A program made the translations under genes and the position numbers. Positions 7,710-25,880 of a DNA stretch of 35,440 nucleotides are shown here, piece by piece. Numbering within the stretch: position 1 is the first letter of the stretch; every line of letters starts with the position of its first letter. Source of the DNA: a virus; IMG/VR virus record IMGVR_UViG_3300032313_000534, positions 1 to 35,440 of that record; one strand, given 5' to 3'. Below the pieces are notes generated by a model. It saw only the letters and a list, made by a program, of their open reading frames with translations, searched no databases and was not told the origin of the DNA.

Positions 7710-8080
7710 CCACATGGCTTGTACTAGCCTTGTTGTTTGTCAAACACTTTCTAGCAGACTTCTGTTGGCAAAATGATAGAATGATCAAAGACAAAGGGCA
7801 CCTTGGTAGACTAGGCGGATTGCAGCATGCCGGTCTCCATGGTGCTCTAACCTATGTTATACTCATGCATTTCTTAGGTATTCAAGCCTGTGTGATGTTG
7901 GCTGTATTTGATGCTGTAGTTCATTACACTGTAGATTTAGCACATCGTAGAGCGACTGTTAGATTAAGCACAGAGTCGGATGCTTTTTGGTTTTGGATTG
8001 GAGTAGATCAATTGACACATGCCATAACTTACTTGTTAATCGGCTTTGTGGTTTCACTTTTATTAGCAGAGTATATATGA
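7706..8080 (+). CDS. DUF3307-like membrane protein
   Basis: 124 residues with about four hydrophobic segments (roughly 3-20, 42-60, 62-80, 90-122). It has the layout of DUF3307: KHFLADFCWQ near the N-terminus, LQHAGLHGALTY, an FDAVVHYTVDLAHRR centre and a final DQLTHAITYLL helix. The role of this family is unknown; inner-membrane location is inferred. The start ATG overlaps the nuclease stop (ATGA) and the stop overlaps the next ATG in the same way. Confidence 0.75.
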   Translation: MTTWLVLALLFVKHFLADFCWQNDRMIKDKGHLGRLGGLQHAGLHGALTYVILMHFLGIQACVMLAVFDAVVHYTVDLAHRRATVRLSTESDAFWFWIGVDQLTHAITYLLIGFVVSLLLAEYI

Positions 8081-8421
8081 TTAGAGATGTACACGGAGGA
8101 GCTCATATTTTAGTATCAAATGGCTACTCACATAAGCCAAATATTAGTCCTGGTGCACAAAGTGCCGGTATGGTTAGATACAGTACTAATACGAATTGTT
8201 TAGAAGTATATGATGGTATTGGTTGGCAACCCATTGGTACAGCATCTCCTACTATAGAGCTGTCGCCAATGGCAAGACAAGCAGTAGATTGGGCTGTACG
8301 TAAACAACAAGAAGAAGATGATCTTCAATCATTAATGAAAAAGCACCCTGGATTACGAGACTTGCACGACAAATTAGAAATGATGAAGGTACTATGTCAA
8401 GAAGAGGAGAAACAAAAATGA
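8077..8421 (+). CDS. Conserved phage protein with tail-fibre-like N-terminal motif
   Basis: 114 residues from ATG 8077 (ATGA overlap); the longer in-frame opening at 7987 is inside the membrane protein and is rejected. An N-terminal segment SPGAQSAGMVRYSTNTN followed by LEVYDGIGWQPI resembles the short GxMxYNtxtnxlEvYDGxxW repeats of phage tail/baseplate proteins. The C-terminal half (ARQAVDWAVRKQQEEDDLQ onward) is helical and coiled-coil-like. A small virion or assembly protein is plausible but not shown. Confidence 0.72.
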   Translation: MIRDVHGGAHILVSNGYSHKPNISPGAQSAGMVRYSTNTNCLEVYDGIGWQPIGTASPTIELSPMARQAVDWAVRKQQEEDDLQSLMKKHPGLRDLHDKLEMMKVLCQEEEKQK

Positions 8422-8771
8422 AATGGTTTAATCGATTGGTGTGGCGACTTTCTCGTAATGCATGGGATCAACACGAAGAATTCATGGAAGAAGAAAGAAA
8501 TCGAGCTCGCACCACTTTACGACAAGCAAGAATCAATCGTGCCAGTACAAGTACTGCGTGGCCTATTGAAGAAGTGCGAGAAAACGATCAACTTCGTGCT
8601 AACAGCATGCATTTTAAATTGTACAACTGTGTTGGCGGTCATATTCTTGAAACCAGTTGTTATAATAGTAGAACTGACGACAATGAGCATACTCTTTACA
8701 TGATACACGAAGAAGATGATTTCGCTAAACAGATAGCACAAGCAATCATGTTGGAGCAAATGAAACTATGA
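8418..8771 (+). CDS. Conserved phage protein, paralogue of the next gene
   Basis: 117 residues from ATG 8418, with GAGGAGA a few bases upstream and an ATGA overlap with the previous stop; the TTG-type opening at 8394 is rejected. The N-terminal part is basic and helical (RLVWRLSRNAWDQHEEF). The C-terminal 50 residues (FKLYNCVGGHILET, HTLYMIHEEDDFAKQIAQAI) match the layout of the following 91-residue protein, implying a tandem duplication with an N-terminal extension on this copy. Function unknown. Confidence 0.7.
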   Translation: MKWFNRLVWRLSRNAWDQHEEFMEEERNRARTTLRQARINRASTSTAWPIEEVRENDQLRANSMHFKLYNCVGGHILETSCYNSRTDDNEHTLYMIHEEDDFAKQIAQAIMLEQMKL

Positions 8772-9043
8772 GCAATTACACTATGTCTGCTGGACAAATT
8801 GGTCCGTTGTCTGTGGGACAGATATCTCAAATTGACATTGGGTCGTATAATCCCGACAAAAAACTTCCTAATAAAAAAATCTCAATTGATGTACATACCG
8901 CCCACGGAGGATATGTTCTAAAATTGTCAAAAGGCATATATGGCGTAGAGGACGATATGTATGTTATCGGTGATAATCAAGATCTTGGGCAAGAGATTGG
9001 AAAAATTATTACACACACTTTCTTAAAGACCGAACATGAGTGA
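8768..9043 (+). CDS. Conserved phage protein, paralogue of the previous gene
   Basis: 91 residues, ATGA overlap at the start. After a Gly/Ser-rich N-terminus (SAGQIGPLSVGQISQ) it has ISIDVHTAHGGYVLKL and DDMYVIGDNQDLGQEIGKIITHTFL, aligning with the C-terminal half of the preceding gene at the GG-x-[VI]-L and [LM]Y-x-I positions and the closing helix. Function unknown. The C-terminus overlaps the next gene by eight bases. Confidence 0.7.
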   Translation: MSNYTMSAGQIGPLSVGQISQIDIGSYNPDKKLPNKKISIDVHTAHGGYVLKLSKGIYGVEDDMYVIGDNQDLGQEIGKIITHTFLKTEHE

Positions 9044-9509
9044 ATTGATCGCTAAACCAGTAATTAAAAATAAGTTTTGGGTAGTAGAAGAATCAGGTAA
9101 CAAGATTGCTACTATTCAAGCCCGTGATGACGGAGGATATGCTTACGTACACGACGAACAAAGAGAATATTTTCCATCGGTGAACAACTTAAAACAAAAA
9201 TACAACATAAAATTTAGCAATTTAGAAAAACCCAAAAAAGAAAATAATAAAACAGTGTATGGATATCCTATCACCGGAAAAGCATACAATCAAGTATGGG
9301 ATGTTCAACGGCGATTACCAATATATAGCAAAACATCAAACAGTAAAAGTTTGTTTTGTGCTGGATATTATTTGATCAAATTAAATTATGAATGGACAGA
9401 AAATTTTTGTCCAAAAAATATCACAGTGGGTAGATATGAATATCTTGGTCCATTCAAGACCAAAAACGAAATGCAGCAAATGTTAAAGGAACAAATATGC
9501 AAAAATTGA
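9036..9509 (+). CDS. Conserved phage protein, unknown
   Basis: 157 residues, ATG 9036. Beta-rich: FWVVEESGNKIATIQARDDGG, then a YPITGKAYNQVWDVQRRLPIY centre, FCAGYYLIKLNYEW, and a C-terminal RYEYLGPFKTKNEMQQML. I recognise the order VWDVQRxLPxYxKT, FCAGYYxI, GPFKTKxEMQQ as recurring in T4-like marine phages, where it has no assigned role. It sits in the same run of small genes and overlaps the following start by 13 bases. Confidence 0.75.
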   Translation: MSELIAKPVIKNKFWVVEESGNKIATIQARDDGGYAYVHDEQREYFPSVNNLKQKYNIKFSNLEKPKKENNKTVYGYPITGKAYNQVWDVQRRLPIYSKTSNSKSLFCAGYYLIKLNYEWTENFCPKNITVGRYEYLGPFKTKNEMQQMLKEQICKN

Positions 9510-9706
9510 GTCTAGCAGTTAAAAATTTTAACGAGCGTGTTAAGACCATGAATCAAACCGGCGGTAAACAAATAGCTTTGTCTGCAGAAGAAGCTAGAAA
9601 TTTACATGCTGACATATTCAATTTGCTTGCAAGCATCGCAGAACTACATAGCACATCAGAACCCTTGCAACCAACCTCATTGAATTTGGACGGAGGGGAT
9701 TTTTAA
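9497..9706 (+). CDS. Small helical phage protein, unknown
   Basis: 69 residues, ATG 9497, inside the end of the previous gene. One long helix-forming region (LSAEEARNLHADIFNLLASIAEL) and a polar tail ending LDGGDF. A perfect hairpin follows the stop directly. No family recognised. Confidence 0.65.
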   Translation: MQKLSLAVKNFNERVKTMNQTGGKQIALSAEEARNLHADIFNLLASIAELHSTSEPLQPTSLNLDGGDF

Positions 9707-9726
9707 CGTAAACTACCCAGTTTACG
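9707..9726 (+). terminator. Perfect 8-bp hairpin after the 9497 gene
   Basis: CGTAAACT (9707-9714), loop ACCC, AGTTTACG (9719-9726). It begins at the base after the stop codon and lacks a downstream T-run. It is therefore at best a weak terminator or a 3'-end protecting hairpin. A late-type motif follows within three bases. Confidence 0.45.
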
Positions 9727-9727
9727 G

Positions 9728-9735
9728 CATAAATA
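9728..9735 (+). promoter_or_regulatory. T4-late-type promoter motif CATAAATA
   Basis: Same octamer as at 3815-3822. It lies between a hairpin and the 9756 gene, about 20 bases before its ATG and next to an AAGG ribosome site, a placement that fits a late promoter. Tentative. Confidence 0.4.
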
Positions 9736-9755
9736 CATAGTTCAAGGAAAAAGCA

Positions 9756-10043
9756 ATGTCCAGACCAAAGCCAACAATATTGTTAGAGCATGTCAATAAA
9801 TCTAACTACAAAAGCGATCAAGTTCTCAGCAGCGAAGGAATTTGGGCAGTATTCTATGACAACAAACCAATCAATCTAAAAAGTTCCAATATGTTGGTTG
9901 CGTATCCAGGTCCAAAATATAAAAAAGTCAGCTTTAGTAACAGCGGACATGCCATCAATCTCGCCAAAAAACTCAACATCCTTTTCAAAACTGATAAATT
10001 CACTGTGGTCCTAATGAAACAAGGTGACCAAATCTACCCGTAA
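9756..10043 (+). CDS. Conserved phage protein, unknown
   Basis: 95 residues, ATG 9756, preceded by AAGGAAAAA. Beta-strand pattern (GIWAVFYDNKPINLK, MLVAYPGPKYKKVSFS), then a helix (GHAINLAKKLNILFKT). The first gene after a hairpin and late-type motif, hence possibly the start of a separately controlled late unit. No family function known. Confidence 0.72.
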   Translation: MSRPKPTILLEHVNKSNYKSDQVLSSEGIWAVFYDNKPINLKSSNMLVAYPGPKYKKVSFSNSGHAINLAKKLNILFKTDKFTVVLMKQGDQIYP

Positions 10044-10389
10044 TCAGCAATCATACACTGAGGATATATTACAAGCGGCAGGACAAAATGCTGCAGAATA
10101 TCCTCGATATGTACGAGTTTGGTGGTGGAATCACACAGATCCAAAAAATCTTAGACTATCCAAACTTGGGATACAGTTTATAAAGAAGTCGACAAAGATT
10201 CCAGTGTACGAATGTCATCTACCTGAATTATTAAAAAATCGCACATTGATACAAATGAGCCGATTATTAACATGTCCGTATTATATACAAAAACTTGATG
10301 AAATAGTACTACTCGGCGAAGAAGAAACTGTACTAATAAAATTACACGCCGACAATCTACAGCAGTATCTTGACAACTTGCAACTTTAA
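10024..10389 (+). CDS. Conserved phage protein, unknown
   Basis: 121 residues from GTG 10024, overlapping the previous gene by 20 bases; no ATG lies near the N-terminus and homology-like content begins almost at once. Features: YPRYVRVWWWNHTDP, LRLSKLGIQFIKK, and a helical C-terminus. The RLSKLGIQF-K pattern resembles small phage proteins that carry a winged-helix-like segment, but I cannot assign one. Confidence 0.65.
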   Translation: MTKSTRNQQSYTEDILQAAGQNAAEYPRYVRVWWWNHTDPKNLRLSKLGIQFIKKSTKIPVYECHLPELLKNRTLIQMSRLLTCPYYIQKLDEIVLLGEEETVLIKLHADNLQQYLDNLQL

Positions 10390-10395
10390 CAACCG

Positions 10396-10424
10396 TTGCA
10401 CATAAAGGCTCCTTTTGCTATAAT
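10396..10424 (+). promoter_or_regulatory. Near-consensus sigma70 promoter
   Basis: TTGCAC (10396-10401), 17-base spacer, TATAAT (10419-10424, perfect, with TGC before it). It would start near 10431 and serve the 10452 gene, whose ATG follows AAAGGAG. Confidence 0.75.
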
Positions 10425-10451
10425 GTACGGTTACTAGTGAAAGGAGCTGTT

Positions 10452-10787
10452 ATGTCTGCACATTCGTATATAACAAAGTACAATTCACGTAATAACAATA
10501 AAGCAATTGTCCAATATTACAAAATACCCGCTACAACAAAATGGGTAGAGTATATGTTGGACAAGCATGATGTTAACAAAATATTAATGGATAGCAATTT
10601 TACAACAAAAATGGATTTGTTAGAAGTATTGCAAGTTTTGGAACGTAAAATTGATTATATGTATAAGCATCCAAATTTTGACTTTAGTAAAGCAACATTT
10701 TTGTTTAACAAATTAAAGTCAGCACCAAAAGTTGCACCTTCAGCAACACCCAAAAAAGTTGCAAAAAAGCAACACAAAAAACGGTAG
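10452..10787 (+). CDS. Basic small protein, unknown
   Basis: 111 residues from ATG 10452, chosen because AAAGGAGC precedes it at good spacing; GTG 10437 would include that site. A helical body (TTKMDLLEVLQVLERKIDYM) is followed by an Ala/Pro/Lys tail (KVAPSATPKKVAKKQHKKR) that looks like a nucleic-acid-binding extension. It is under a strong host-type promoter, so early expression is likely. Its last codons overlap the -35 region of the next promoter. Confidence 0.72.
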   Translation: MSAHSYITKYNSRNNNKAIVQYYKIPATTKWVEYMLDKHDVNKILMDSNFTTKMDLLEVLQVLERKIDYMYKHPNFDFSKATFLFNKLKSAPKVAPSATPKKVAKKQHKKR

Positions 10788-10813
10788 ACTAAAAAGACCC
10801 ATTTTGTTATAGT
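10785..10813 (+). promoter_or_regulatory. Sigma70-like promoter, repeat copy A
   Basis: TAGACT (10785-10790), spacer AAAAAGACCCATTTTGT (17), TATAGT (10808-10813). The start seven bases after the -10 is the A of ATG 10820, so the mRNA would be leaderless. The spacer and the start of the -10 are identical to the promoter at 11056. Confidence 0.6.
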
Positions 10814-10819
10814 TTGATT

Positions 10820-11050
10820 ATGAAATTTATTTTATTATTTGTTGCACTTAATCAATCCCCAACAATGTTGGGCAGTTACGATTCTGTTAACAGTTGCAAA
10901 AATGCAATTCGTGCAATTTATGCAACACAAATGATTGTACCAAACTTGCAATATTCGCAACAACAACTAGATGTTATAAATCGTGTAATAGATACGCAGT
11001 TGCAATATCAACAAGAATATACGTGTGTTGCTAAAAAGCAACAGAAATAA
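10820..11050 (+). CDS. Small exported-type protein with two cysteines
   Basis: 76 residues from ATG 10820; the in-frame TTG at 10814 lies at the promoter -10. The hydrophobic N-terminus (MKFILLFVALNQS) has a short basic start and reads as a signal peptide or single anchor. The rest has SCKNAIRAIYA, a Gln-rich middle and YTCVAKK. One disulphide between the two cysteines is possible. The layout resembles the 58-residue protein at 3828-4004. Predicted location is membrane or periplasm. No ribosome site precedes the ATG. Confidence 0.65.
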   Translation: MKFILLFVALNQSPTMLGSYDSVNSCKNAIRAIYATQMIVPNLQYSQQQLDVINRVIDTQLQYQQEYTCVAKKQQK

Positions 11051-11055
11051 AACGG

Positions 11056-11084
11056 TTGTCCAAAAAGACCCATTTTGTTATACT
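11056..11084 (+). promoter_or_regulatory. Sigma70-like promoter, repeat copy B
   Basis: TTGTCC (11056-11061), spacer AAAAAGACCCATTTTGT (17), TATACT (11079-11084). It is a near copy of the element at 10785. Here transcription would start near 11091, giving a leader of about 40 bases to ATG 11132 with its own AGGAG site. Confidence 0.65.
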
Positions 11085-11131
11085 ATGTTTGTTGTGTAGT
11101 TAATTTTAACAGTAACTTTTTAGGAGAGTAT

Positions 11132-11590
11132 ATGTCTAAGACTTTTACTTTTGCAGGTACTTGCGTTGAGAATGACGCCGTTGTTTACAAGTTTGCTAAC
11201 GACGCTAGTCGTGCCAAAGCACTTGAGCGGTTTGGTTGCACTGAAGTCAAGCTAGTTGAGTTGCCTAATGCAATGGACAAGGAGACGGCTGTTGCTTATC
11301 TTGCTACTGTGGGCATGACTGCTATTAAGCCAGTTCGTGCAGCCAAGTCAAAGTCAGCTGCTGTCAAGCCTGCAAAGACTGTTGCTGCCAAACTGCCCAA
11401 AGTTAAGACTACAGGTAGCGACGAATTGACTCGCGAGGCTTATGCTGAGGCTATGAGCGAACGTAGTGCCAACGGTATGCCAGTTGTATCGTTTGCACAA
11501 TACAAGCGTGACTCAGCTAAGGCTGTTGCATTCTTCGCCAAGTGTGATGCCAAACTTGCAGCCAAACGTGCAGCGGGCAAGTCTGTATAA
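11132..11590 (+). CDS. Ala/Lys-rich linker protein, unknown
   Basis: 152 residues from ATG 11132, set by TAGGAGAG upstream; an in-frame ATG-less extension to 11075 crosses the promoter. An N-terminal alpha/beta domain (about 1-68) is joined to a C-terminal helical domain (ELTREAYAEAMSERSANG onward) by an Ala-Lys-Pro-rich tether at about 70-95, like the basic tails of histone H1 or HU-type proteins. DNA or RNA binding is a guess. It has its own promoter and a large hairpin after the stop, so it is probably transcribed as a single-gene unit. Confidence 0.75.
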   Translation: MSKTFTFAGTCVENDAVVYKFANDASRAKALERFGCTEVKLVELPNAMDKETAVAYLATVGMTAIKPVRAAKSKSAAVKPAKTVAAKLPKVKTTGSDELTREAYAEAMSERSANGMPVVSFAQYKRDSAKAVAFFAKCDAKLAAKRAAGKSV

Positions 11591-11593
11591 TTT

Positions 11594-11631
11594 AATGAGT
11601 GTCTGTTGTGTAAAAGCGACAGACACTTATT
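11594..11631 (+). terminator. Long hairpin between the 11132 gene and the MoxR gene
   Basis: AATGAGTGTCTGT (11594-11606) pairs with ACAGACACTTATT (11619-11631): 13 base pairs including one G-U, with a 12-base loop. No T-run follows. The right arm overlaps the -35 of the MoxR promoter, so it may be a bifunctional boundary element. Confidence 0.5.
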
Positions 11632-11648
11632 CACGATTATACTATAAT
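11620..11648 (+). promoter_or_regulatory. Sigma70-like promoter for the MoxR gene
   Basis: CAGACA (11620-11625, 4 of 6), 17-base spacer, TATAAT (11643-11648). The start near 11655 gives a short leader with AAGGAG before ATG 11681. Confidence 0.55.
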
Positions 11649-11680
11649 AATGTTTCACACGTTGACAAGGAGAATACTAA

Positions 11681-12787
11681 ATGGCAGTAACTGAAAGTCG
11701 TACTGTAACACCCGAAGAAGCTCGTAATCGTATTTTACGATGCTTCAAGCATAAGCGTCCTGCATTCCTCTGGGGTCCGCCAGGTGTAGGCAAATCCGAA
11801 GTGGTAGCAGACATTGCCGCAGAGCTTGGTGGCTATATGATTGACTTGCGACTATCGCAAATGGAGCCGACTGACATTCGCGGTATTCCATTTTATAACA
11901 AGGATATTGGCAAGATGGATTGGGCTGCTCCTGTTGACTTGCCCGACGAAGAACTAGCGGCACAGTATCCAATTGTAGTATTGCTATTGGACGAGATGAA
12001 TTCGGCTGCACCTGCAGTACAAGCATCGGCGTACCAGCTGATTCTTAATCGTCGTATCGGCAAGTATCGTTTGCCAGACAATGTTGTAATGGTAGCCGCA
12101 GGTAATCGTGATAGTGACAAGGGTGTTACTTATCGTATGCCTAGTCCGTTGGCAAATCGTTTCTTGCATTTGGAAGTTCGACCAGACTTCGAGTCATGGC
12201 AGACCTGGGCAGTTAAAAACAAGATACATCCAGATGTTGTTGGTTATCTTAGTTTCGCTAAAGCTGACATGTTTGATTTTGATCCACGTAGTAACAGTCG
12301 TTCGTTTGCTACACCACGTACTTGGACCTTTGCGTCAGAGTTTTGTCATGATGAAGGCGGTAGTGCTCAAGAACTAACTGACCTAATTGCAGGTTGTGTT
12401 GGCGAGGGTGCGGCTGTCAAGTTTATGGCACATCGTAAACATGCTGCCAACTTGCCCAAGCCCGAAGACATTCTGCAAGGCAAAGTCAAGGAACTCAAGA
12501 CCAAAGAGATTTCAGCCATGTATTCGCTGACAACCAGTATGTGTTATGAGTTGCAAGACTACTATACCAAGAACGGCAAGGACAAGATTGCCGAGTTTCA
12601 CAAAATGGCAGACAACTTCTTGCGTTTTATGATGGATAACTTTACTACTGAAGTTACTGTTATGGGTGCTAGAGTTGCGTTAACAACATACAGTCTGCCA
12701 ATGGTTCCAGGCAAGATGCCAAGCTTTGATGAGTTCCATCAGCGATTTGGTAAGTATGTTTTAGCAGCAGCTGGTAGTTCTAAGTAA
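11681..12787 (+). CDS. MoxR-family AAA+ ATPase
   Basis: 368 residues, ATG 11681 behind AAGGAG. Walker A is GPPGVGKSE (32-40), Walker B VVLLLDEM (99-106), sensor 1 lies in VMVAAGNRD (N142), and an arginine-finger candidate is R160 in SPLANRF. MoxR proteins are ring ATPases that usually work with a VWA-domain protein to insert metals or remodel a client complex; such a partner lies at 14259-15521. The C-terminal part from about 190 is family lid plus unassigned helices. Sampled composition is about 50% G+C (12361-12420), well above its downstream neighbour. The client in a phage setting is unknown. Confidence 0.92.
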   Translation: MAVTESRTVTPEEARNRILRCFKHKRPAFLWGPPGVGKSEVVADIAAELGGYMIDLRLSQMEPTDIRGIPFYNKDIGKMDWAAPVDLPDEELAAQYPIVVLLLDEMNSAAPAVQASAYQLILNRRIGKYRLPDNVVMVAAGNRDSDKGVTYRMPSPLANRFLHLEVRPDFESWQTWAVKNKIHPDVVGYLSFAKADMFDFDPRSNSRSFATPRTWTFASEFCHDEGGSAQELTDLIAGCVGEGAAVKFMAHRKHAANLPKPEDILQGKVKELKTKEISAMYSLTTSMCYELQDYYTKNGKDKIAEFHKMADNFLRFMMDNFTTEVTVMGARVALTTYSLPMVPGKMPSFDEFHQRFGKYVLAAAGSSK

Positions 12788-12790
12788 TTA

Positions 12791-12840
12791 GGTCGCGTGT
12801 GAGGCAGGGGCAGGACTAGATCCGTAAGACCCCTTATTAT
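12791..12840 (+). other. Possible structured RNA / terminator-like element
   Basis: Between the MoxR stop and ATG 12842. AGGGG (12806-12810) can pair with CCCCT (12830-12834), and GGA (12813-12815) with TCC (12821-12823), followed by TATTATTAT. Alternatively GGTC (12791-12794) pairs with GACC (12828-12831), mutually exclusive with the first stem. It could be a weak terminator or a switching leader. No known riboswitch consensus recognised. Confidence 0.35.
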
Positions 12841-12841
12841 T

Positions 12842-13150
12842 ATGAAACTCTTTATTGAACAATTAGATGGCAGGCACAAAGGTTCAGGACATTGGACTCA
12901 TCGTGCTCAATTTGTACGTGACGGTTACGGTCATGTGGCAAGAGAAGAAGTAACACGAAATTTTGTTGAAACACGTAACCAACTCTGGGAAACATTTGGT
13001 CCAGGTTGTGACAGAGAAGAATTATACGGTATAATTAGAGCTACATTAAATGCACCCGAATGGGGTTGGTGGTCTGAAAGGGGAGGCAGTGTTCCTTATA
13101 TATATTTTAAGCGAGGACCAATCTTGACTTGGTTCCTACTACGTACTTGA
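12842..13150 (+). CDS. Hypothetical protein, unknown
   Basis: 102 residues from ATG 12842; no ribosome binding site is visible, so the start is uncertain. The N-terminus HKGSGHWTHRAQFVRDGYG and a middle ETFGPGCDREELYGIIRATLN precede a Trp-rich segment (EWGWWSERGG) and IYFKRG. It reads like a small alpha/beta domain. No family recognised. It lies in the segment between the MoxR and VWA genes. Confidence 0.6.
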   Translation: MKLFIEQLDGRHKGSGHWTHRAQFVRDGYGHVAREEVTRNFVETRNQLWETFGPGCDREELYGIIRATLNAPEWGWWSERGGSVPYIYFKRGPILTWFLLRT

Positions 13151-13160
13151 CAGTAAAAAA

Positions 13161-14228
13161 ATGAACATAATATTGTATCCATCTGAAAGTATATCAAATA
13201 TACACGATTTTGTTCAATTTAATTCAATCAAACACGAAACAAAATCATGGTGGAATAACGATTTATACGACTTCTCGTTATTAGATGTTGAAAACACCTT
13301 AATAATAATTGATTTTAACATATTAATTGATACTATAGCAACACCAGATTCTTTACATTCCCTTGTTGAATGTCTTGATAAAAACAATCATTTGTTAGTT
13401 GCAAATGACATAGATGGCATTTATGAATTGTATGAGCCTGAATCTAGACTAGAAGATATTGACAAATTATTGAGTTCAACAAAAATTACGTTGATACTAG
13501 ATGGAATTCCGTTGAATAATTTTAAATATAAAAATATAAGAATGTTGAGTGCACCAAATTCAAATTTTGAAAAAACATTCCCAAGAAAAAACGTTTTGTG
13601 TAACACGCACTCAAAAAAAGATTATATTCTAACTATGGGCAGGCAACGGTTGCACCGAGATATTTTATGGAAAATATTAACAGAAAAACAGTTGTTAGAC
13701 AACGGATTCAGTATCTATCACAAAGAAAAAAATTTGTCAACTATTGAGTCAAAATGGATAGGATCAAAAAATTCATTCCATGAGTGGCAAGACGGTCATC
13801 CGTCAATTGAACTGTATAATAATTCAAATTTTGAAATTGTGCCTGAAACATTTTTTAAGGACGCTTATTTTATTACAGAAAAAACAATCAAACCAATTTC
13901 ATATAATTTGCCGTTTGTAGTCGTGTCTACTCCAGGATACTTGGAATTTTTACGATCAAAAGGATATAAAACATTTGATGGTATCATAAACGAAAGTTAT
14001 GATTACGAATACGATTTAGAAAAAAGAATAGAATTGGTTGTAGAACAAGTTGAATACGTAATCAAGTCGGGAAGTGATAATTTTTACAAGAAAGCGTCTG
14101 ATATTACCAAACACAATTTTGATAATTTAGCAAGAATAAGTGGTTCTTGGTGGGCAATAATGGACGAGTTCTATCTCAAAGTAATAACCGATTACGCAGA
14201 AACAATTGACAATAAAGACGAATTTTAG
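13161..14228 (+). CDS. Glycosyltransferase-like protein (GT10-like C-terminus), AT-rich
   Basis: 355 residues. The C-terminal half (about 230-281) carries ET-x8-TEK-x2-KPI, PFVVV, LEFLRSKGYKTFD and ESYD, shared with the 23950-25095 gene. The EK-x2-KP-x5-P-[FI]-V pattern is what the nucleotide-sugar site of family 10 (fucosyl-type) glycosyltransferases looks like; the exact family is inferred. The N-terminal half shows only alternating strands and helices. Sampled composition is 23% G+C (13261-13320) and 35% (14041-14100), against 50-58% in the flanking MoxR and VWA genes, suggesting separate acquisition. The last codons hold the -35 and spacer of the VWA promoter. Confidence 0.6.
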   Translation: MNIILYPSESISNIHDFVQFNSIKHETKSWWNNDLYDFSLLDVENTLIIIDFNILIDTIATPDSLHSLVECLDKNNHLLVANDIDGIYELYEPESRLEDIDKLLSSTKITLILDGIPLNNFKYKNIRMLSAPNSNFEKTFPRKNVLCNTHSKKDYILTMGRQRLHRDILWKILTEKQLLDNGFSIYHKEKNLSTIESKWIGSKNSFHEWQDGHPSIELYNNSNFEIVPETFFKDAYFITEKTIKPISYNLPFVVVSTPGYLEFLRSKGYKTFDGIINESYDYEYDLEKRIELVVEQVEYVIKSGSDNFYKKASDITKHNFDNLARISGSWWAIMDEFYLKVITDYAETIDNKDEF

Positions 14229-14234
14229 TATAAT
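14206..14234 (+). promoter_or_regulatory. Perfect-consensus sigma70 promoter for the VWA gene
   Basis: TTGACA (14206-14211), 17-base spacer, TATAAT (14229-14234): all twelve consensus bases and ideal spacing. The -35 and spacer lie within the 3' codons of the preceding gene, and the -10 begins right after its TAG stop. The start near 14241 leaves a short leader with AAGGAG before ATG 14259. Confidence 0.88.
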
Positions 14235-14258
14235 GTGTTTATACATTAAGGAGCCGCA

Positions 14259-15521
14259 ATGAGTAATACTACACTAGCCGAAAAAGCAAAAGTAAAAACA
14301 GAAACAGATCCACGTAAAGATGCAGCAGCTAGAGAAAAACTAGTCACTGCACGTATTGGTTTATTGCTAAAGGCTCCGTTTTTTGGTAACTTGGCAACTC
14401 GTTTGACCCTGCACAATGCAGACGATTGGTGCGGTACTGCTGCTACAGACGGCAGAAAGTTCTATTACAATAGCGAGTTTATTAACACGTTACCGTTAAA
14501 GCAGCTAGAGTTCTTGGTTGGACACGAAGTGTTACACGTGGTATATGACCACATGAATAGACGTGGCGAACGTGACCCCAAACTGTCTAACATTGCTGCT
14601 GACTACTGTGTCAATGGCGACTTGATGGAACAGCGTATTGGTGAAAAGATTCCCGTTGGTTTGTTTGATACCAAGTTCAAAGGTTGGAGTTACGAAGAAG
14701 TGTATGACCACTTGTACGAGAACGCTGAGAAAATTGACATCAACAAGTTGCTGCAACAGGTGTTAGACGAGCACTTGGATGATGGCGATGGTGACGATGG
14801 CGACAAAGATGGTGAGGGCAAAGATGGTAAGGGTCGTCCTCGACTGAGCAAAGAAGAGCGTGACGCTATTCGTGACGAGATCAAAGACGCTGTACTACAA
14901 GCCGCACAAGCAGCAGGTGCAGGCAACTTGCCCGCAGGTGTTAAGCGATTGCTCAAAGATATTACTGCACCAGTTATTGGTTGGAAAGAACTATTACAAC
15001 AACAGATTCAAAGCACTATCAAGAATGATTATAGTTGGGCTAGGCCAAGCCGCAGAGGTTGGCACATGGATGCCATTTTGCCTGCAAGCAAACCAGGAGA
15101 CATGATTGATATTTGTATATCCATGGATCAATCTGGATCAATTAGTGAAGAAGATAGTCGTGCGTTTTTAGGTGAGATCAAAGGTATCATGGAGGCGTTT
15201 GATGAATACAAGATCACACTGTGGTGTTTTGATACTGAAATCTATAATGTACAGACCTTTACTAGCGATAACATTGACGACATTATGAATTATGAGCCAA
15301 TGGGCGGTGGTGGTACAGACTTTATGGCCAATTGGGAATACATGAAAGAGAACGCAATTGAACCCAAGAAGTTTATTATGTTTACAGATGGTATGCCTTG
15401 CGGTGAGTGGGGTGAAGAAAACTACTGCGATACTGTATGGGTAATTAAAGGCAATCCAGATTGCGAGCCACCATGGGGCATCTGGGCACACTACGAAGAA
15501 GCTGCTAAAGGAGGCAAATAA
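14259..15521 (+). CDS. VWA-domain protein with HExxH metallopeptidase-like domain (MoxR partner)
   Basis: 420 residues. The N-terminal domain has HEVLH (89-93) with DYCVN downstream, a zincin-type motif. An acidic Asp/Gly linker runs about 172-192. The C-terminal VWA domain has the complete MIDAS: DQSGS (290-294), GGGGTDF with T353, and TDG with D377. This domain pair (DUF2201-like plus VWA) is the usual partner of MoxR ATPases. It is likely cytoplasmic: no signal peptide. Strong promoter and AAGGAG site. Whether it acts as a protease or only as a metal-dependent adaptor is not decidable from sequence. Confidence 0.88.
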   Translation: MSNTTLAEKAKVKTETDPRKDAAAREKLVTARIGLLLKAPFFGNLATRLTLHNADDWCGTAATDGRKFYYNSEFINTLPLKQLEFLVGHEVLHVVYDHMNRRGERDPKLSNIAADYCVNGDLMEQRIGEKIPVGLFDTKFKGWSYEEVYDHLYENAEKIDINKLLQQVLDEHLDDGDGDDGDKDGEGKDGKGRPRLSKEERDAIRDEIKDAVLQAAQAAGAGNLPAGVKRLLKDITAPVIGWKELLQQQIQSTIKNDYSWARPSRRGWHMDAILPASKPGDMIDICISMDQSGSISEEDSRAFLGEIKGIMEAFDEYKITLWCFDTEIYNVQTFTSDNIDDIMNYEPMGGGGTDFMANWEYMKENAIEPKKFIMFTDGMPCGEWGEENYCDTVWVIKGNPDCEPPWGIWAHYEEAAKGGK

Positions 15522-15787
15522 TGAATCGAGCTTGGCGTTTTGTTAAATGGTTTACCAGCAAATGCGGCTGGTTTGAAGCCGTAATGTTTATTACTTCATT
15601 TAGTTTAGCAGCAGGTCTTACAGCAGGCGAAGGACCAACTCGTAATGTCTTTTGGGGTATAGCTGTTGCAGTAAATGCTTTGGCTATTTTGTTTTTTATA
15701 GCCTGGGGTGCTCGTAATATATGGCGAGATTTTGTCAAGCATGATGAAAAATGTTTTGACATCCTTAAACAAAAGGACATTAAATGA
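15521..15787 (+). CDS. Small membrane protein, two TM segments
   Basis: 88 residues, TAATG overlap with the VWA gene. Two hydrophobic segments at about 19-35 and 44-62 (FWGIAVAVNALAILFFIAWG), with a basic N-terminus (NRAWRFVKW) and a charged C-terminal tail. Probably inner-membrane, with both ends cytoplasmic by the positive-inside rule. Translationally coupled to the VWA gene, so a membrane partner for the MoxR/VWA pair is conceivable. No family recognised. Confidence 0.7.
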   Translation: MNRAWRFVKWFTSKCGWFEAVMFITSFSLAAGLTAGEGPTRNVFWGIAVAVNALAILFFIAWGARNIWRDFVKHDEKCFDILKQKDIK

Positions 15788-15957
15788 TTAATAAAGAATT
15801 TATTTTGGTTATAGTGGCTATAGCAATAGGTGTATTTCTGGCCTTGGCGTATTTCCCTAGCGATCGGCGTGTGATTGATTGCGGTATTGCAGAAATAAGT
15901 CCGGACTATTCCAATGAAATGAAAGAAGCCTGTAGAAAAGAAAGGATGGCACGATGA
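15784..15957 (+). CDS. Short membrane-anchored two-Cys protein
   Basis: 57 residues, ATG 15784 to TGA 15957, with ATGA overlaps at both ends. One hydrophobic anchor (FILVIVAIAIGVFLALAYF, about 6-24) is followed by a short outside domain VIDCGIAEISPD, then EACRKER. The C-x3-E-I-S-P-D and C-R pattern is one I have seen in small phage membrane proteins of unknown role. The overlapping starts and stops strongly support a real gene despite its length. Confidence 0.75.
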   Translation: MINKEFILVIVAIAIGVFLALAYFPSDRRVIDCGIAEISPDYSNEMKEACRKERMAR

Positions 15958-16172
15958 TAGTAGAATTAAATAACGAAGCAGTGGATGGGTTAATCAAAAG
16001 TCTTTTGATACAAGACTACAAAGGTCTTTGTTCGGATATTGACAATCTAGAATCCGCAAAGGAACTGCGAGATTATCAGCGACAAGATCTTGAACATAAC
16101 TATCGTTATCGCAATGCAATGGAAACTCTACTAGAATACTATGTAGGATTTCATTGGAAGGACCAGCTGTGA
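15954..16172 (+). CDS. Small helical phage protein, unknown
   Basis: 72 residues, ATGA overlap. Mostly helix: VELNNEAVDGLIKSLLIQD at the start, a charged middle, and METLLEYYVGF near the end. The plan of an N-terminal [IV]ELxxEAVDxLI segment and a C-terminal LEYY is shared by a widespread small protein of T4-like phages with no known role. The next start overlaps the stop (GTGA). Confidence 0.72.
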   Translation: MIVELNNEAVDGLIKSLLIQDYKGLCSDIDNLESAKELRDYQRQDLEHNYRYRNAMETLLEYYVGFHWKDQL

Positions 16173-16558
16173 AACACGTAGGCGTAGCTATTGGTATGAA
16201 CACGATTGAACGTATAGATCGTATACGTGAACTGTCCGAATTCTTTGGCTTTAGATTAGGCCGGCGCCCGCATAGTGGGTTCGGAGATAGTGAGCTCGAC
16301 GTTATTGCTTTGTATCCCAAGGACGATCGTTTGCCCACGTACAGTCGCGAGTCTTGTTTGTTTACAGGTTCACTATCCGATGTTGAAAACTTTTTAGATG
16401 GTGTTCAATGGGCAAGAAAATATGACAACCTAATAGGTGCAACAACAGATCAGCGACGTACACAATACGAGGCACGGGAAGTAGCAAGATTGGCAAAGAT
16501 GAAACTTAATAAAGAGAAAGCAGACACTTTTAAAATACTCAAACAGGAACATGCGTAA
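16169..16558 (+). CDS. Conserved-type phage protein, unknown
   Basis: 129 residues from GTG 16169 (GTGA overlap); the GTG-type opening at 16154 is rejected. An N-terminal alpha/beta segment (IDRIRELSEFFGFRLG, DVIALYPKDDRLP) is followed by FLDGVQWARKYDNLIG and a long charged helix rich in Arg, Glu and Lys. No catalytic motif seen. It ends by a TAATG overlap. Confidence 0.7.
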   Translation: MKHVGVAIGMNTIERIDRIRELSEFFGFRLGRRPHSGFGDSELDVIALYPKDDRLPTYSRESCLFTGSLSDVENFLDGVQWARKYDNLIGATTDQRRTQYEAREVARLAKMKLNKEKADTFKILKQEHA

Positions 16559-16845
16559 TGGAACCAATTGATTTTAACGAAATTAAAGCTTCAAAAAAAG
16601 TAAAACAACTCATTGCGAAATTACAAGAACGTTTACTACTAACCGAAGATGCACTAGAGGACATTACTCGTGCAGCTGAAATCGTAGAAGTGACTGGACA
16701 ACGAGAAATTCTTAGCACCTGGATTGAACAATCCAACGAGTTCTTGAAAAATCGTATTGTACGTCCAGATTCTAGTATTAGCGCCGACGAACAAAAAATT
16801 CTTGTCGTAACCGACGAAACAGACGGCAACAAAAATGTTACGTAA
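16558..16845 (+). CDS. Coiled-coil-like small protein, unknown
   Basis: 95 residues, nearly all helical from 8 to 70 (KASKKVKQLIAKLQERLLL, EDALEDITRAAEIVE), likely coiled coil. An acidic end (VVTDETDGNKNVT) overlaps the next gene by 11 bases. No family recognised. Confidence 0.68.
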   Translation: MEPIDFNEIKASKKVKQLIAKLQERLLLTEDALEDITRAAEIVEVTGQREILSTWIEQSNEFLKNRIVRPDSSISADEQKILVVTDETDGNKNVT

Positions 16846-17125
16846 CGGAGAAGCCAATCCGTTAACAGTACACGGGCTTCGAGAATTAGATCGTTGCCCA
16901 CCACACTTTATTCAAGTACCATTTGATAGCCGTTGTTCTCGAAAACAAATAACTGATTGGATATGGGAAAATTTTGAAGGACGTTTTTGGTTTGACGATC
17001 TTTACTACTTGACTGAAAGTGGCTCAACTGCAATGACTGCTTGTGCTGCATTTGAAATTCCTGGTGAAGCCAGTATGTTCAGTCTTTGCTTGGATCAGAT
17101 TCAAGCCCAATCTGTAATATTTTAA
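16835..17125 (+). CDS. Hypothetical protein, unknown
   Basis: 96 residues, ATG 16835 inside the previous gene's end. A mixed alpha/beta sequence with RCPPHFIQVPFDSR, a helix QITDWIWENFEG and FWFDDLYYLTESGS. The C-terminal ASMFSLCLDQIQ is strand-like. Four cysteines with no zinc-finger spacing. Followed by an AT-rich gap containing a perfect hairpin. Confidence 0.65.
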   Translation: MLRNGEANPLTVHGLRELDRCPPHFIQVPFDSRCSRKQITDWIWENFEGRFWFDDLYYLTESGSTAMTACAAFEIPGEASMFSLCLDQIQAQSVIF

Positions 17126-17160
17126 CTTAAAATAAAAAAATAATAGTCTCTCTTTTCTCT

Positions 17161-17183
17161 ATTAAATAATATTATTATTTAAT
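17161..17183 (+). promoter_or_regulatory. Perfect AT-only hairpin just before a ribosome site
   Basis: ATTAAATAAT (17161-17170), loop ATT, ATTATTTAAT (17174-17183): 10 perfect base pairs. GGAG follows at once (17184-17187), six bases before ATG 17193. A pyrimidine-rich stretch (TCTCTCTTTTCTCT) precedes it. It may end the upstream transcript or gate translation. Confidence 0.55.
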
Positions 17184-17192
17184 GGAGAACAC

Positions 17193-17414
17193 ATGGAACA
17201 ACCTTCACAATCCCCCGAAGCACCCAGTCTAGCACTAACTGATTTGGTACTATTATTAAATCTGATTAGGGTAGCCAGCGAACGCGGTGCAATCAAAGCC
17301 GACGAGCTCAGTGCAGTTGGTGATGTATATAACAAACTTCTAAAATTCTTAGAGGCAAGTGGTGCCATAAATAAACAGGCCTCAGAAGAATCCGCACCGG
17401 ATCAATCCGAATAA
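17193..17414 (+). CDS. Small conserved phage protein, unknown
   Basis: 73 residues, ATG 17193. The core is a helix bundle unit: LALTDLVLLLNLIRVASERGAI followed by ELSAVGDVYNKLLKFLEA. Acidic tail. I recognise the LxDLxxxxNxIxxASxRGAxxxxELSxVGxxxxxxxxF pattern from small marine phage proteins; its role is unknown. Confidence 0.75.
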   Translation: MEQPSQSPEAPSLALTDLVLLLNLIRVASERGAIKADELSAVGDVYNKLLKFLEASGAINKQASEESAPDQSE

Positions 17415-17431
17415 ATTCAAGGAGAAATAAA

Positions 17432-18112
17432 ATGTTAAAGCACGTCGGTAAACACAACGAAAAGCGTTGTGTAATTGTTTTTCGAAAAATACCCGATCTA
17501 GAACACATGGCATTGGTTATTTACAGCGACCTATTGCCTAGGATGGTTCACGACGAAGTAATGCGAGCTGTTGAAAGCCCGCAAGGACAGGAAGCAAAAG
17601 AAATTAGCGATGTTCTGTTTAGAACTATTATGGCAGATGGTCATAACTGTCTAGAAAGCTTGCATCGAAATGGATTAATGAAAAAGGTTCCTACCAATCA
17701 AGTTTTAGTTACTCCTACTAGTAATAGTAGTGTCCGACTAGATGAATTAAATGATATTCTTGACGAAATGCAAAAAGGCGAAGAAGCTCTCAAACGTCTT
17801 CAAGATATTGATAGCAGTCGTGGATATACTGGTAAAAAAGCACCAAGAAAAGCCACAATCCAAGAAGTTGGGGAACGTCGCACAAGAGAAGCACAAGGTA
17901 ATACTAGTGCTGCAGAAATGTTATCAGGACTACTATCAGACTCTGACTTAGCTACTCAAAGATTAGAACAAGCTCAAAAAATGGAAGCAAGTGCTAAACA
18001 ACTATTAGAGGAAGCAGCAAGATTAAAACAAGAAGCAGAAAGTCTAAGTCCAAAGGTAGATAATGTCGGAACAAAAACCAAAAAAACCGCGACAAAAAAG
18101 CAAGCGGCTTAA
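17432..18112 (+). CDS. Conserved phage protein with C-terminal coiled coil
   Basis: 226 residues, ATG 17432 behind AAGGAG. The N-terminal 110 residues form a compact domain (MLKHVGKHNEKRCVIVFRK, MALVIYSDLLP, MRAVESPQGQEAKEISDVLF, LHRNGLMKKVPTNQVLV). A basic linker follows, then an Ala/Glu/Lys coiled coil (about 185-210), ending with a Lys/Thr tail. The N-terminal domain is recurrent in T4-like marine phages next to nucleotide-metabolism genes, but I know no function. The C-terminus overlaps the next gene by 50 bases. Confidence 0.75.
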   Translation: MLKHVGKHNEKRCVIVFRKIPDLEHMALVIYSDLLPRMVHDEVMRAVESPQGQEAKEISDVLFRTIMADGHNCLESLHRNGLMKKVPTNQVLVTPTSNSSVRLDELNDILDEMQKGEEALKRLQDIDSSRGYTGKKAPRKATIQEVGERRTREAQGNTSAAEMLSGLLSDSDLATQRLEQAQKMEASAKQLLEEAARLKQEAESLSPKVDNVGTKTKKTATKKQAA

Positions 18113-18404
18113 TCTAAATAGCAAAGCACAATGGGAATCTATTTTACGTTCAGTAGAAAAAAAAGAAATTCCTATTGCTTTTTTAGAAAGTGTTGCGGTT
18201 AATCTTACCGACGGCACCATAGTTAACATCAACATCAAAGAACTACTCAACGAAGGTAATGACCCTGATGTGTTAGAAACAATGTTAAAGACTAAATTAT
18301 CCGCATTAGATTACATAATCGAAGACATTGATTTTTATATAAGTGTCGCAGCAGTACAAAAAGCAGTACAACCAGCCACAGACGAATTACTTAAAAATTT
18401 ATGA
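18063..18404 (+). CDS. Conserved phage protein upstream of DHFR
   Basis: 113 residues, ATG 18063. A basic N-terminal tail (KPKKPRQKSKR) precedes AQWESILRSVEKKEIPIAFLE, a beta segment VNLTDGTIVNINIKELL, then LDYIIEDIDFYISVAAV and VQPATDELLKNL. The pattern is familiar from T4-like phage hypotheticals. The first 50 bases lie inside the previous gene in another frame, and the stop overlaps the DHFR start (ATGA), so the genes are probably translationally coupled. Confidence 0.75.
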   Translation: MSEQKPKKPRQKSKRLNLNSKAQWESILRSVEKKEIPIAFLESVAVNLTDGTIVNINIKELLNEGNDPDVLETMLKTKLSALDYIIEDIDFYISVAAVQKAVQPATDELLKNL

Positions 18405-18910
18405 TTTGTACAATCTTTGCCACAGACCAAATGGGGACATTTGGTAATCGTGGAACACTACCCTGGCCAATGGATCCTGAAGATATGGCCTGGTTTCGAG
18501 AACATACTCATAATCAGATTGTTATTATGGGCCGCAAAACTTGGGATGATCCCAAGATGAAGAAGCCATTGCCCAATAGAATTAATTGTGTAGTTAGCAG
18601 CAGACCCATTGAAGGATATCCCGGTGTTAGACGCTTACACGGTGATTACAAAAAGCAAATTCGCGAACTGCAAACATTATTTCCGGATAAAAAAATATTC
18701 ATATTAGGTGGTCCAGAACTCATTATGGACTGCAAGGATCTAATAGATTATGCTTATGTCACACACAGAAAAGGCGCTGCATTTAGCGATGTTCGGATTG
18801 ATTTGCGAGATTTTATGATAGGGATGAGGATCACAAGTAGTAGACCTTCTTCAGATAAAATGTTAAACTTTAGTATCTACAAAAATGTAGATATTTTTAG
18901 ACCTTTATAA
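18401..18910 (+). CDS. folA: Dihydrofolate reductase
   Basis: 169 residues, the usual length for bacterial and phage DHFR. It reduces dihydrofolate with NADPH, regenerating the cofactor used by the adjacent thymidylate synthase. Family motifs: GNRGTLPWPMDPEDMAWF (substrate loop with the LPW motif and an acidic residue following), VIMGRKTWDD (NADPH site), VVSSRP and IFILGGPELI. The gene is followed at once by thyA, as in T4 frd-td. The C-terminus is slightly diverged, but no key residue appears lost. Confidence 0.93.
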   Translation: MICTIFATDQMGTFGNRGTLPWPMDPEDMAWFREHTHNQIVIMGRKTWDDPKMKKPLPNRINCVVSSRPIEGYPGVRRLHGDYKKQIRELQTLFPDKKIFILGGPELIMDCKDLIDYAYVTHRKGAAFSDVRIDLRDFMIGMRITSSRPSSDKMLNFSIYKNVDIFRPL

Positions 18911-19828
18911 ATGGAACAACAATACTTAACAGCATTGCGTGATGTTTTAGAAACAGGAACACGCAGAGATGATCGCACGGGTGTAGGTACTATATCACAA
19001 TTTGGTATGCAACAACGTTACGATCTATCCCAAGGCTTTCCAGCGGTTACTACAAAGCGACTGGCATGGAAGAGTGTAGTAGGAGAACTACTATGGATGA
19101 TTGAAGGTAGTGGTGATGAACGTAGGCTAGCAGAGATTACGCATGGTACTCGAGATAGTGTTGTTACGATTTGGACACCTAATGCAATGGCTCCTTATTG
19201 GCGAGCCAAGTCTAAGTTCGAAGGCGACTTGGGTAGAGTATATGGAGTACAGTGGCGTCATTGGCGTGCCATTAAACCTCGTGAAACCAACGCTACATTT
19301 AAAGACGGTTTTGGAAGTACTTACCGTAGAGTAGGCAACGATGTAGAAGTAAAAGAAGTTGATCAACTGATGCAGTTGATTGAGGGTATCAAGGCAGACC
19401 CATACGGACGACGACACATACTTTCAGCATGGAACCCAGGCGAGCTCGACTCAATGGCCTTGCCCCCGTGTCATTGCTTTGCACAGTTTTATGTAGCAGA
19501 TGGCAAACTCAGTTGCCAAATGTATCAAAGAAGTTGCGACATGTTTCTAGGTGTACCTTTTAATATCGCCAGCTATTCGCTATTGACAGCGATGATTGCA
19601 CAAGTGTGTGGTTTGAAAGTAGGAGAGTTCGTTCACGTTCTAGGCGACGCACACATATACTCGGATCATGTAGAGCAGGTAAAAGAACAGTTGACACGTG
19701 AACCATTACCAATGCCGCAATTGTACCTCAATCCTGAGATTACTGATATCACTAAGTTTACTATGGCAGATATCAGATTAGAAAATTATCAATCACACAA
19801 CGCTATTCAGGCTAAAATGGCTGTATGA
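18911..19828 (+). CDS. thyA: Thymidylate synthase (ThyA)
   Basis: 305 residues. Converts dUMP to dTMP using methylenetetrahydrofolate, releasing dihydrofolate that DHFR recycles. Seen: GTRRDDRTGVGT at the N-terminus with the phosphate-binding Arg, PPCHCFAQFYV with catalytic C187, QRSCDMFLGVPFNIASYSLL (the conserved RSxDxxLGxPFN segment, with Cys where most ThyA have Val or Ala), and GDAHIYSDHVEQVKEQL. Length and order match family ThyA. ATG follows the DHFR stop directly. The gene serves phage dTTP supply together with the dCMP deaminase at 25034. Confidence 0.95.
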   Translation: MEQQYLTALRDVLETGTRRDDRTGVGTISQFGMQQRYDLSQGFPAVTTKRLAWKSVVGELLWMIEGSGDERRLAEITHGTRDSVVTIWTPNAMAPYWRAKSKFEGDLGRVYGVQWRHWRAIKPRETNATFKDGFGSTYRRVGNDVEVKEVDQLMQLIEGIKADPYGRRHILSAWNPGELDSMALPPCHCFAQFYVADGKLSCQMYQRSCDMFLGVPFNIASYSLLTAMIAQVCGLKVGEFVHVLGDAHIYSDHVEQVKEQLTREPLPMPQLYLNPEITDITKFTMADIRLENYQSHNAIQAKMAV

Positions 19829-20055
19829 TATTACACGAATTCACAATGGGAGATGTAGAGGATCCATACCTGTACGCAGGATTTCCTATCAGTGAATGGC
19901 AGGCAACAGAAATGGGACAATGGGTGATGGCGAATGTCACAGAACAACCTGCATTTCATGTTCACCCAAGTCATGAAACAATGGGATATCGTGTAGTAAT
20001 AACAGGCAAACTCAATCCCCAAGCAGAAACTTACTTTAGATTAAAATACCAATGA
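19825..20055 (+). CDS. Small conserved phage protein after thyA
   Basis: 76 residues, ATGA overlap with thyA. Opening EFTMGDVEDPYLYAGFPISEW, then ATEMGQWVMANV, FHVHPSHETMGYRVVITGKL and a C-terminal FRLKYQ. I recognise the EFTMGDVEDPxLYA...W segment from T4-like marine phages, where it sits near nucleotide-metabolism genes. Possibly an accessory of that pathway by position only. Confidence 0.78.
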   Translation: MILHEFTMGDVEDPYLYAGFPISEWQATEMGQWVMANVTEQPAFHVHPSHETMGYRVVITGKLNPQAETYFRLKYQ

Positions 20056-25480: not shown

Positions 25481-25880
25481 TTATTTTCTCTAGTATAATT
25501 TTTGACCATTTTGCTGCATCTTGCTCGGTTACTCGAACATCATACTTTTCTGGAGATTCAAACATACGATTGGTATCTTCATATCTACCTTCTGCAATTG
25601 TATCTACCCATATCGTAAAATCTGCAGCATAATTGTCACGCATACAAGATAACGGGCAAACAAAGTCTGCAATTATGTAATCCTTATTTGATATGTCTGC
25701 TATTTCTCGCATACGTTGACTTTGTCTTAGTCGTCCTGCTTCAGAAAAATCCCAATCGTTAAACTTTTTTCTAATCTCATCTGCGTTGAGCCACAACGCA
25801 TTCGGAGATAACATTGCAAATAAATTTAGTGCTAGGGTAGTTTTACCGGCACCAGGTAGCCCCATTATTAATATTCTCAT
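25464..25880 (-). CDS. P-loop kinase, APS-kinase-like
   Basis: 138 residues from ATG 25880 (ATGA overlap with the carbamoyltransferase; AAAGG upstream); a GTG two codons earlier is less likely. Walker A is GLPGAGKTT (7-15). LWLNADEIRKKFNDWDFSEAGRL matches the CysC region (D-x-[DN]-x-[VI]-R with the following DLGFS-type helix). DYIIADFVCP resembles the Walker B strand. The CysC family phosphorylates adenylylsulphate, but many phage relatives act on other small molecules. With a carbamoyltransferase and SGNH proteins next door, activation of a small group for glycan decoration is a guess. Confidence 0.8.
   Translation of the reverse strand: MRILIMGLPGAGKTTLALNLFAMLSPNALWLNADEIRKKFNDWDFSEAGRLRQSQRMREIADISNKDYIIADFVCPLSCMRDNYAADFTIWVDTIAEGRYEDTNRMFESPEKYDVRVTEQDAAKWSKIILEKINERKI

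Follow-up and report, generated by a model that had tools for sequence, protein, structure and literature searches.

In group 2.2 of the jumbo phages, which are defined by genomes of more than 200 kb, a MoxR ATPase and a vWA protein form a chaperone pair for which a role in virion assembly has been proposed, according to the accessible part of PMC7824862. In T4-type phages, mobile regulatory cassettes called PeSL place a stem-loop and a promoter beside variable genes (Arbiol 2010 and Comeau 2014, as cited in the accessible part of PMC4503421). The locus described here lies in the virus record IMGVR_UViG_3300032313_000534, which was analyzed over its whole length of 35,440 bases (the window; coordinates are window positions unless a locus is named). 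In it, the genes of a MoxR-type AAA+ ATPase and a VWA protein are separated by a small gene, orf102, and by an AT-rich gene for a probable glycosyltransferase.

The MoxR-vWA pair itself is already known, and by its Pfam and PHROG matches the window carries such a pair, the VWA protein likewise having an N-terminal metallopeptidase domain. A variable cargo slot or a resident glycosyltransferase between the two genes is not described in the accessible part of PMC7824862, and the literature titles and abstract openings listed yielded no description of a MoxR-VWA cargo slot. We find that the contents of this junction vary from phage to phage, and we consider it on balance probable that the junction is a cargo slot in which the glycosyltransferase is an old, patchily kept resident and not a demonstrated recent import. 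One junction between two conserved genes, which large phages may use in particle building, gathers unrelated cargo.

Contents of the MoxR-VWA junction in related phages

Related loci (designated by L and a number) were fetched by MoxR (best 80 of 197 found), by VWA (best 80 of 180 rows found), or by the glycosyltransferase, and come from contigs of up to 383,411 bases. The starting set comprised 99 VWA loci, matches with the same first 300 bases being counted once while near-duplicates remain; three without a start codon were dropped, and in 95 of the 96 loci measured MoxR lies upstream. Across these 95 loci the slot ranges from 4 to 4,863 bases, with 37 gaps of less than 150 bases, 3 of 150 to 350, 28 of 350 to 550, 14 of 550 to 1000, and 13 of 1000 or more.

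The orf102 family occupies 48 of the 95 slots. Of its 91 matches in all loci, 75 lie in the slot and 4 outside it; the other 12 are in loci that do not have both borders. The slot share is favored by the use of MoxR, VWA, or the glycosyltransferase to fetch the loci. The window member had no match in the Pfam scan and is not among the 5 of 47 members that match Bleomycin_resist_prot_dom (best, 0.00085), and no PHROG was matched at 0.01 by any of the 47 members scanned. The AlphaFold2 model of orf102 (predicted local distance difference test [pLDDT] score, 90.8) has no match in the PDB at an E value of ≤0.001 (best Z, 5.6) and three in BFVD at the same threshold, all uncharacterized phage proteins. 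Ten further slot proteins were taken from eight other loci, and 8 of them match Pfam families of metabolic enzymes, namely, 4HBT thioesterase (two), NAD synthase, AMP-binding, Asn-synthase/PP-loop-like, radical S-adenosylmethionine (SAM; two), and short-chain dehydrogenase; the other 2 match nothing. The slot of L071 (7157 to 11855 of that locus) is a long series of small open reading frames (ORFs), several of which have similar ends (for example, LFSLRWS and MFLLRFA) and two of which match the orf102 model.

A preliminary description, made from the window sequence alone, had proposed that a single AT-rich, glycosyltransferase-like gene was inserted later between MoxR and VWA, and had suggested looking in related phages for the two genes directly adjacent. 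An AT-rich gene does separate them, and its glycosyltransferase-like character is backed by the predicted fold described below; it is not the only gene there, orf102 having been overlooked. Among the 28 loci whose MoxR is at least 86% identical, the glycosyltransferase is found in the window alone. All 27 others, several of which are near-duplicates of each other, are arranged as MoxR-VWA or MoxR-orf102-VWA, with orf102 in 19 and a gap of less than 150 bases in 8, so the gene order of the window is not common to all relatives. One further locus, L002, shares 7,560 bases with the window at 99.9% identity; it ends inside the glycosyltransferase gene, where its last bases differ. It has no VWA and does not enter the count.

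An empty site and its interpretation

The counterpart of the window without the glycosyltransferase gene is found in L035, which aligns to positions 12839 to 13151 and resumes at 14206. With positions 13152 to 14210 omitted, 190 of 220 columns of the flanks are identical, and among 17 shifts spaced by 5, this join scores highest. The ends of the segment in the window carry TTGACAGTAAA and TTGACAATAAA, and L035 has a single TTGAC. Because TTGAC stands at both ends of the segment in the window and once in L035, the glycosyltransferase gene may have been gained or lost by recombination at this short shared promoter sequence, or else the core genes on either side may have mediated an exchange. L035 is 89% identical to the window in VWA, 79% in orf102, and 78% in MoxR, and it is mosaic, its orf102 and VWA being the closest found among the loci compared and its MoxR not. 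Judged from the alignment, the empty site would fit a gain in the window and a loss in L035 equally well. The notion of a later insertion stands as regards the difference in presence and absence; as regards a new insertion it does not, since loss or exchange of slot alleles explains the pattern about equally, the subfamily being found in the slot of distant phages and the trees (below) sharing their main split.

The insertion had been read from an abrupt shift in composition across four 60-base samples, whose G+C counts (30, 14, 21, and 35) are exact. Of the 590 such tiles in the window, 19 have 14 G+C or fewer; 21 or fewer are found in 218, and a sample like the second AT-rich one is thus nothing unusual. 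At 29.7%, the glycosyltransferase gene has the lowest G+C content of the 52 tabulated ORFs (next lowest, 31.1%) and lies between MoxR at 45.4% and VWA at 43.9%. Its codon use is nevertheless in line with that of the other window genes (z, +0.50; 45 genes), its G+C content at synonymous third positions being 0.244 (rank 18 of 45; median, 0.265), and it is MoxR (z, -3.08) and VWA (z, -2.45) that deviate in the same set. From its amino acids and the codon use of the window, a G+C content of 0.319 would be expected, against 0.297 observed. The step thus reflects GC-rich flanks and an AT-rich amino acid make-up, and composition as a sign of recent import was rejected. The low G+C content is, moreover, a family trait, the subfamily being AT-rich wherever seen: the members in L082 (on the same contig as L038), L083, L084, and L085 have 28 to 35% G+C in loci of 36 to 46%, and that of L242 has 30%. 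A strong composition step can mislead, in this case for an AT-rich gene that is ordinary in codon use and belongs to a subfamily old at the slot.

These results bear on the possibility that the gene entered the lineage of the window lately, in a single insertion from an AT-rich source outside these phages. Its absence from the slots of all 27 close relatives and from L035 would agree with such an event, as would its having the lowest G+C content in the window; with ordinary codon use, a low G+C content typical of the family, and closest known relatives (among the matches listed) that occupy the same slot in distant phages, we regard a recent insertion as unlikely.

Promoter and hairpin at the borders of the slot

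VWA is preceded by a promoter that the preliminary description had noted as perfect and that is the sole 12/12 consensus match within positions 8000 to 20000. Scored with a matrix from 74 promoters found in relatives, preselected for a score of ≥10 and excluding the window, it reaches 26.0 bits; the next best site in the window has 14.9, and the maximum of 10 mononucleotide shuffles (plus strand only) is 11.2. A promoter of at least 10/12 lies before VWA in 86 of the 96 loci, 84 of these with the 17-base spacer, and shuffles of the same stretches reach this score in 127 of 4,800 cases. The idea that the promoter is part of the insert does not hold, since it is present at the same place in relatives that lack the glycosyltransferase gene. 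Two 42-base promoter-like copies, 86% identical, flank a small ORF (10814 to 11050) farther upstream, at 10778 to 10819 and 11049 to 11090; the VWA promoter is in register with them at 69%.

Among the 53 loci with a promoter of ≥10 and an upstream neighbor other than MoxR, the upstream ORF ends with a TGA inside TTGAC in 26, comprising 20 orf102 genes, 2 glycosyltransferases (L085 and L242), and 4 other ORFs, including the thioesterase of L042. In the window, orf102 stops in the left TTGAC; the glycosyltransferase ORF continues across its own TTGAC to a stop codon in the spacer, and promoter DNA therefore makes up its last codons. Cargo and VWA often meet at the -35 box TTGAC, and roughly half of the loci with cargo also draw the TGA stop codon of the upstream gene from it. 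With the -35 box and a stop codon shared in this manner, compact genomes might have an easy means of taking up cargo and leaving the next gene unharmed.

On the left, MoxR is followed by a terminator-like stem-loop. The motif TAAG[TA]C occurs in 38 of 96 distinct MoxR ends, nearly always within a two-stem hairpin. An alignment (A4) of 33 of these 38 ends, from which four near-duplicates and L226 (a plain hairpin) were excluded, has 8 pairs; in 4 of them both sides vary, and the covariation term is small (-0.82 kcal/mol). The constancy of TAAG in A4 is partly due to the selection of loci by TAAG[TA]C. The resulting model scores 62 bits on the window (12787 to 12842), by construction, as the window is in the model. 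In 60 sources, which apart from the window are pieces of 7 to 13 kb, it has 28 matches, 27 of them behind MoxR (25 being the model's own sequences) and one elsewhere at an E value of 0.044. In ten sources scanned, the hairpin matched no Rfam family at gathering thresholds. By eye, a hairpin follows MoxR in four cultured phages as well. In L187, the MoxR reading frame ends early (position 4457 of that locus), through either a real break or an assembly error.

Since a terminator-like hairpin stands after MoxR and a promoter before VWA, genes could enter or leave without breaking the expression of their neighbors; with the hairpin on the left in many loci and the VWA promoter on the right, the slot would be transcriptionally insulated. 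Where cargo is absent, as in L022, the promoter comes immediately after the hairpin. In having a stem-loop and promoter beside variable genes, the slot resembles a PeSL, going by the definition in the accessible part of PMC4503421. It differs from PeSL in that the hairpin was seen only behind MoxR in the pieces searched; recombination through the cassette is something we infer from L035 and the TTGAC repeat.

Predicted fold and activity of the glycosyltransferase

An AlphaFold2 model of the slot protein, built with 36 sequences, is confident (pLDDT score, 88.5; predicted template modeling score, 0.86) and predicts a GT-B fold across the whole protein, which would place it in the GT-B superfamily. 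The best Foldseek match is T4 DNA beta-glucosyltransferase (9.5e-06), followed by other GT-B enzymes, with nine rows at an E value of ≤0.001; VIA-align superimposes 290 residues on 6eji_A (Z, 13.2; root mean square deviation, 5.1) and matches many further GT-B enzymes. The same two-domain fold is predicted over the whole protein as in GT-B enzymes that include T4 BGT and AGT and the glycosyltransferase of phage HY126 (9iqz). Unlike these, the slot protein could be assigned to no family of Pfam or PHROGs with the thresholds applied (one weak PHROG match at 0.076), and identities in the listed matches are 5 to 13%. When solved structures were searched with a profile, no match had an E value below 0.15.

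Columns invariant among the 36 sequences include E229, E240, K241, E278, D281, and R289, and the protein probably binds a nucleotide sugar and transfers the sugar. As to donor and acceptor, our tentative first choice, to which we give slightly less than even chances, is that the enzyme transfers a sugar to a glycan of the host surface or of the virion; sugar transfer to DNA seems unlikely. Rather speculatively, the TTGAC -35 box could be a docking sequence that gives both a promoter element and a TGA stop, so that unrelated genes plug in and out cleanly, and the glycosyltransferase subfamily could be kept mainly there because the enzyme works together with the MoxR-VWA machine, perhaps as a decorator of the virion proteins that this machine assembles; we think this quite unlikely.

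Members of the glycosyltransferase subfamily and their history

As a lone query, the window glycosyltransferase found no relatives in viral contigs or, at 0.01, in the phage collection, and the homologue in L083 likewise found none in the phage collection. Relatives were reached solely by profile searches with two alignments (A1 and A2), and member counts are lower bounds. Among the matches listed, the subfamily has at least six members (the window, L038, L083, L084, L085, and L242). The five in the profile score 491.5 to 555.7 bits, by construction, L242, which is outside the profile, scores 332.6, and the next protein scores 132.1. At least five of the at least six members sit in the slot upstream of VWA, in distantly related phages: in the window, L038, and L242 the gene lies directly before VWA with MoxR upstream, and in L085 it also lies directly before VWA, the contig ending before the position of MoxR. 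The cargo of the window would consist of orf102 and a glycosyltransferase of GT-B fold, most of whose known close relatives occupy the slot. Genome contigs yielded one partial match (residues 209 to 327; 35%), on a contig labeled as a Pacearchaeota metagenome-assembled genome. Outside the slot, positions 23950 to 25095 of the window encode another protein of the glycosyltransferase superfamily, a distant one (78.4 bits to the slot profile; no Pfam match).

In the glycosyltransferase tree all six members form one group (support, 89/86) in which L084 is nested, and the approximately unbiased test rejects a clade that unites the five slot members and excludes L084 (P = 0.012; the group was inspected before the test). 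The split between L083, L084, L085, and L242 on one side and the window and L038 on the other has support of 100/98 and is also present in the VWA tree. Identities of the glycosyltransferases and of the VWA proteins are correlated (Spearman, 0.59; nominal P = 0.02; 15 nonindependent pairs, L084 included). Both the common split and this correlation would be expected of a gene that was present here in the common ancestor and was lost many times, by most lineages. In L035 the loss would have come from recombination of one TTGAC copy with the other, a repeat that permits clean deletion. Such a history would be compatible with a cargo slot. Five gains, however, suffice on the VWA tree, and a single ancestral gain would need many losses; that tree is a quick one, with no bootstrap and with L084, L242, L038, and L085 flagged as long branches. 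We view repeated loss from an ancestor as possible but somewhat doubtful.

Cultured phages

Phage records match VWA in 754 cases and MoxR in 824, all at less than 60% identity, the best being PA5oct-like Pseudomonas phages and then Sinorhizobium phage Phosso. The junction was inspected in four cultured phages. PA5oct has four genes there, one of them annotated as a putative homing endonuclease. The single junction gene of Vibrio phage 2.275 is related to this PA5oct gene (41% identity over 282 residues), Salicola phage SCTP-2 has two hypothetical genes, and Phosso has none annotated. The annotation and its Vibrio relative raise the question of whether an endonuclease cutting the MoxR-VWA junction brought the cargo. 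The Pfam matches of both proteins are, however, weak and below curated cutoffs, and phmmer searches with both at 1e-5 found nothing among the ORFs of at least 100 codons in the environmental loci and the window; we hold this explanation to be very improbable.

Several observations count against the picture of an insulated cargo slot with a long-standing glycosyltransferase. The VWA promoter scores just 8, 8, 9, and 10 of 12 in the four cultured phages, so this border is not general; five loci almost without space (4 to 26 bases) have no such promoter; and MoxR ends without the TAAG[TA]C motif have other hairpins, many of them plain and GC-rich, or none that is obvious. In L242 the glycosyltransferase gene comes straight after MoxR. 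The repeat flanking the segment has only 11 bases, with one mismatch, and 20 of the 26 overlaps of stop codon and -35 box are orf102 genes in related loci and are not independent. One small ORF separates the glycosyltransferase from VWA in L083, the gene of L084 lies about 87 kb from its MoxR-VWA pair, and on the VWA tree the distribution of the five slot holders takes five changes, which is the maximum. As for the fold, the nine Foldseek rows have template modeling scores (by query) of just 0.37 to 0.51, and the structure matches include ties among many different GT-B enzymes.

Features of the locus and other observations

The features of the locus are given in Table 1. The MoxR translation contains GPPGVGKS, which we take to be the Walker A motif, and that of the VWA protein contains HEVLH and DQSGS, presumably the motifs of a metallopeptidase and a VWA protein, respectively. 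PHROG 1314 and several phage records would make the VWA protein an HNH or homing endonuclease, an assignment not backed by Pfam, which gives metallopeptidase and VWA-like domains instead.

Table 1. Coordinates of features at the MoxR-VWA junction of the window
Feature	Position	Strand	Remarks
MoxR-type AAA+ ATPase	11681..12787	+	Left border of slot; Pfam AAA 1.4e-08, AAA_3 3.7e-06; phrog_1297 ATPase 9.1e-100
Terminator-like stem-loop directly after MoxR	12806..12834	+	Two short stems with internal loop (CA / GTAAG); conserved stretch from ~12793
orf102	12842..13150	+	Commonest slot occupant; small family without database match
Left copy of TTGACARTAAA repeat	13147..13157	+	-35-like box without -10 at 17 bases; TGA is the orf102 stop
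Probable GT-B fold glycosyltransferase gene, slot cargo	13161..14228	+	AlphaFold model, Foldseek, VIA-align
VWA promoter TTGACA-17-TATAAT	14206..14234	+	12/12; overlaps last codons and stop of glycosyltransferase gene
VWA protein with N-terminal metallopeptidase domain	14259..15521	+	Right border of slot; Pfam DUF2201_N 2e-45, DUF2201 1.3e-16

Positions 545 to 827 and 1177 to 1250 of the phage contig L043, upstream of MoxR, hold a permuted transfer-messenger RNA (Rfam RF04321, 70.5 bits) and, next to it, a tRNA. On the minus strand of the window, a gene cluster at 25877 to 35394 encodes a carbamoyltransferase; four further products match radical SAM, one of them above the Pfam cutoff, and three of the four also match SPASM.

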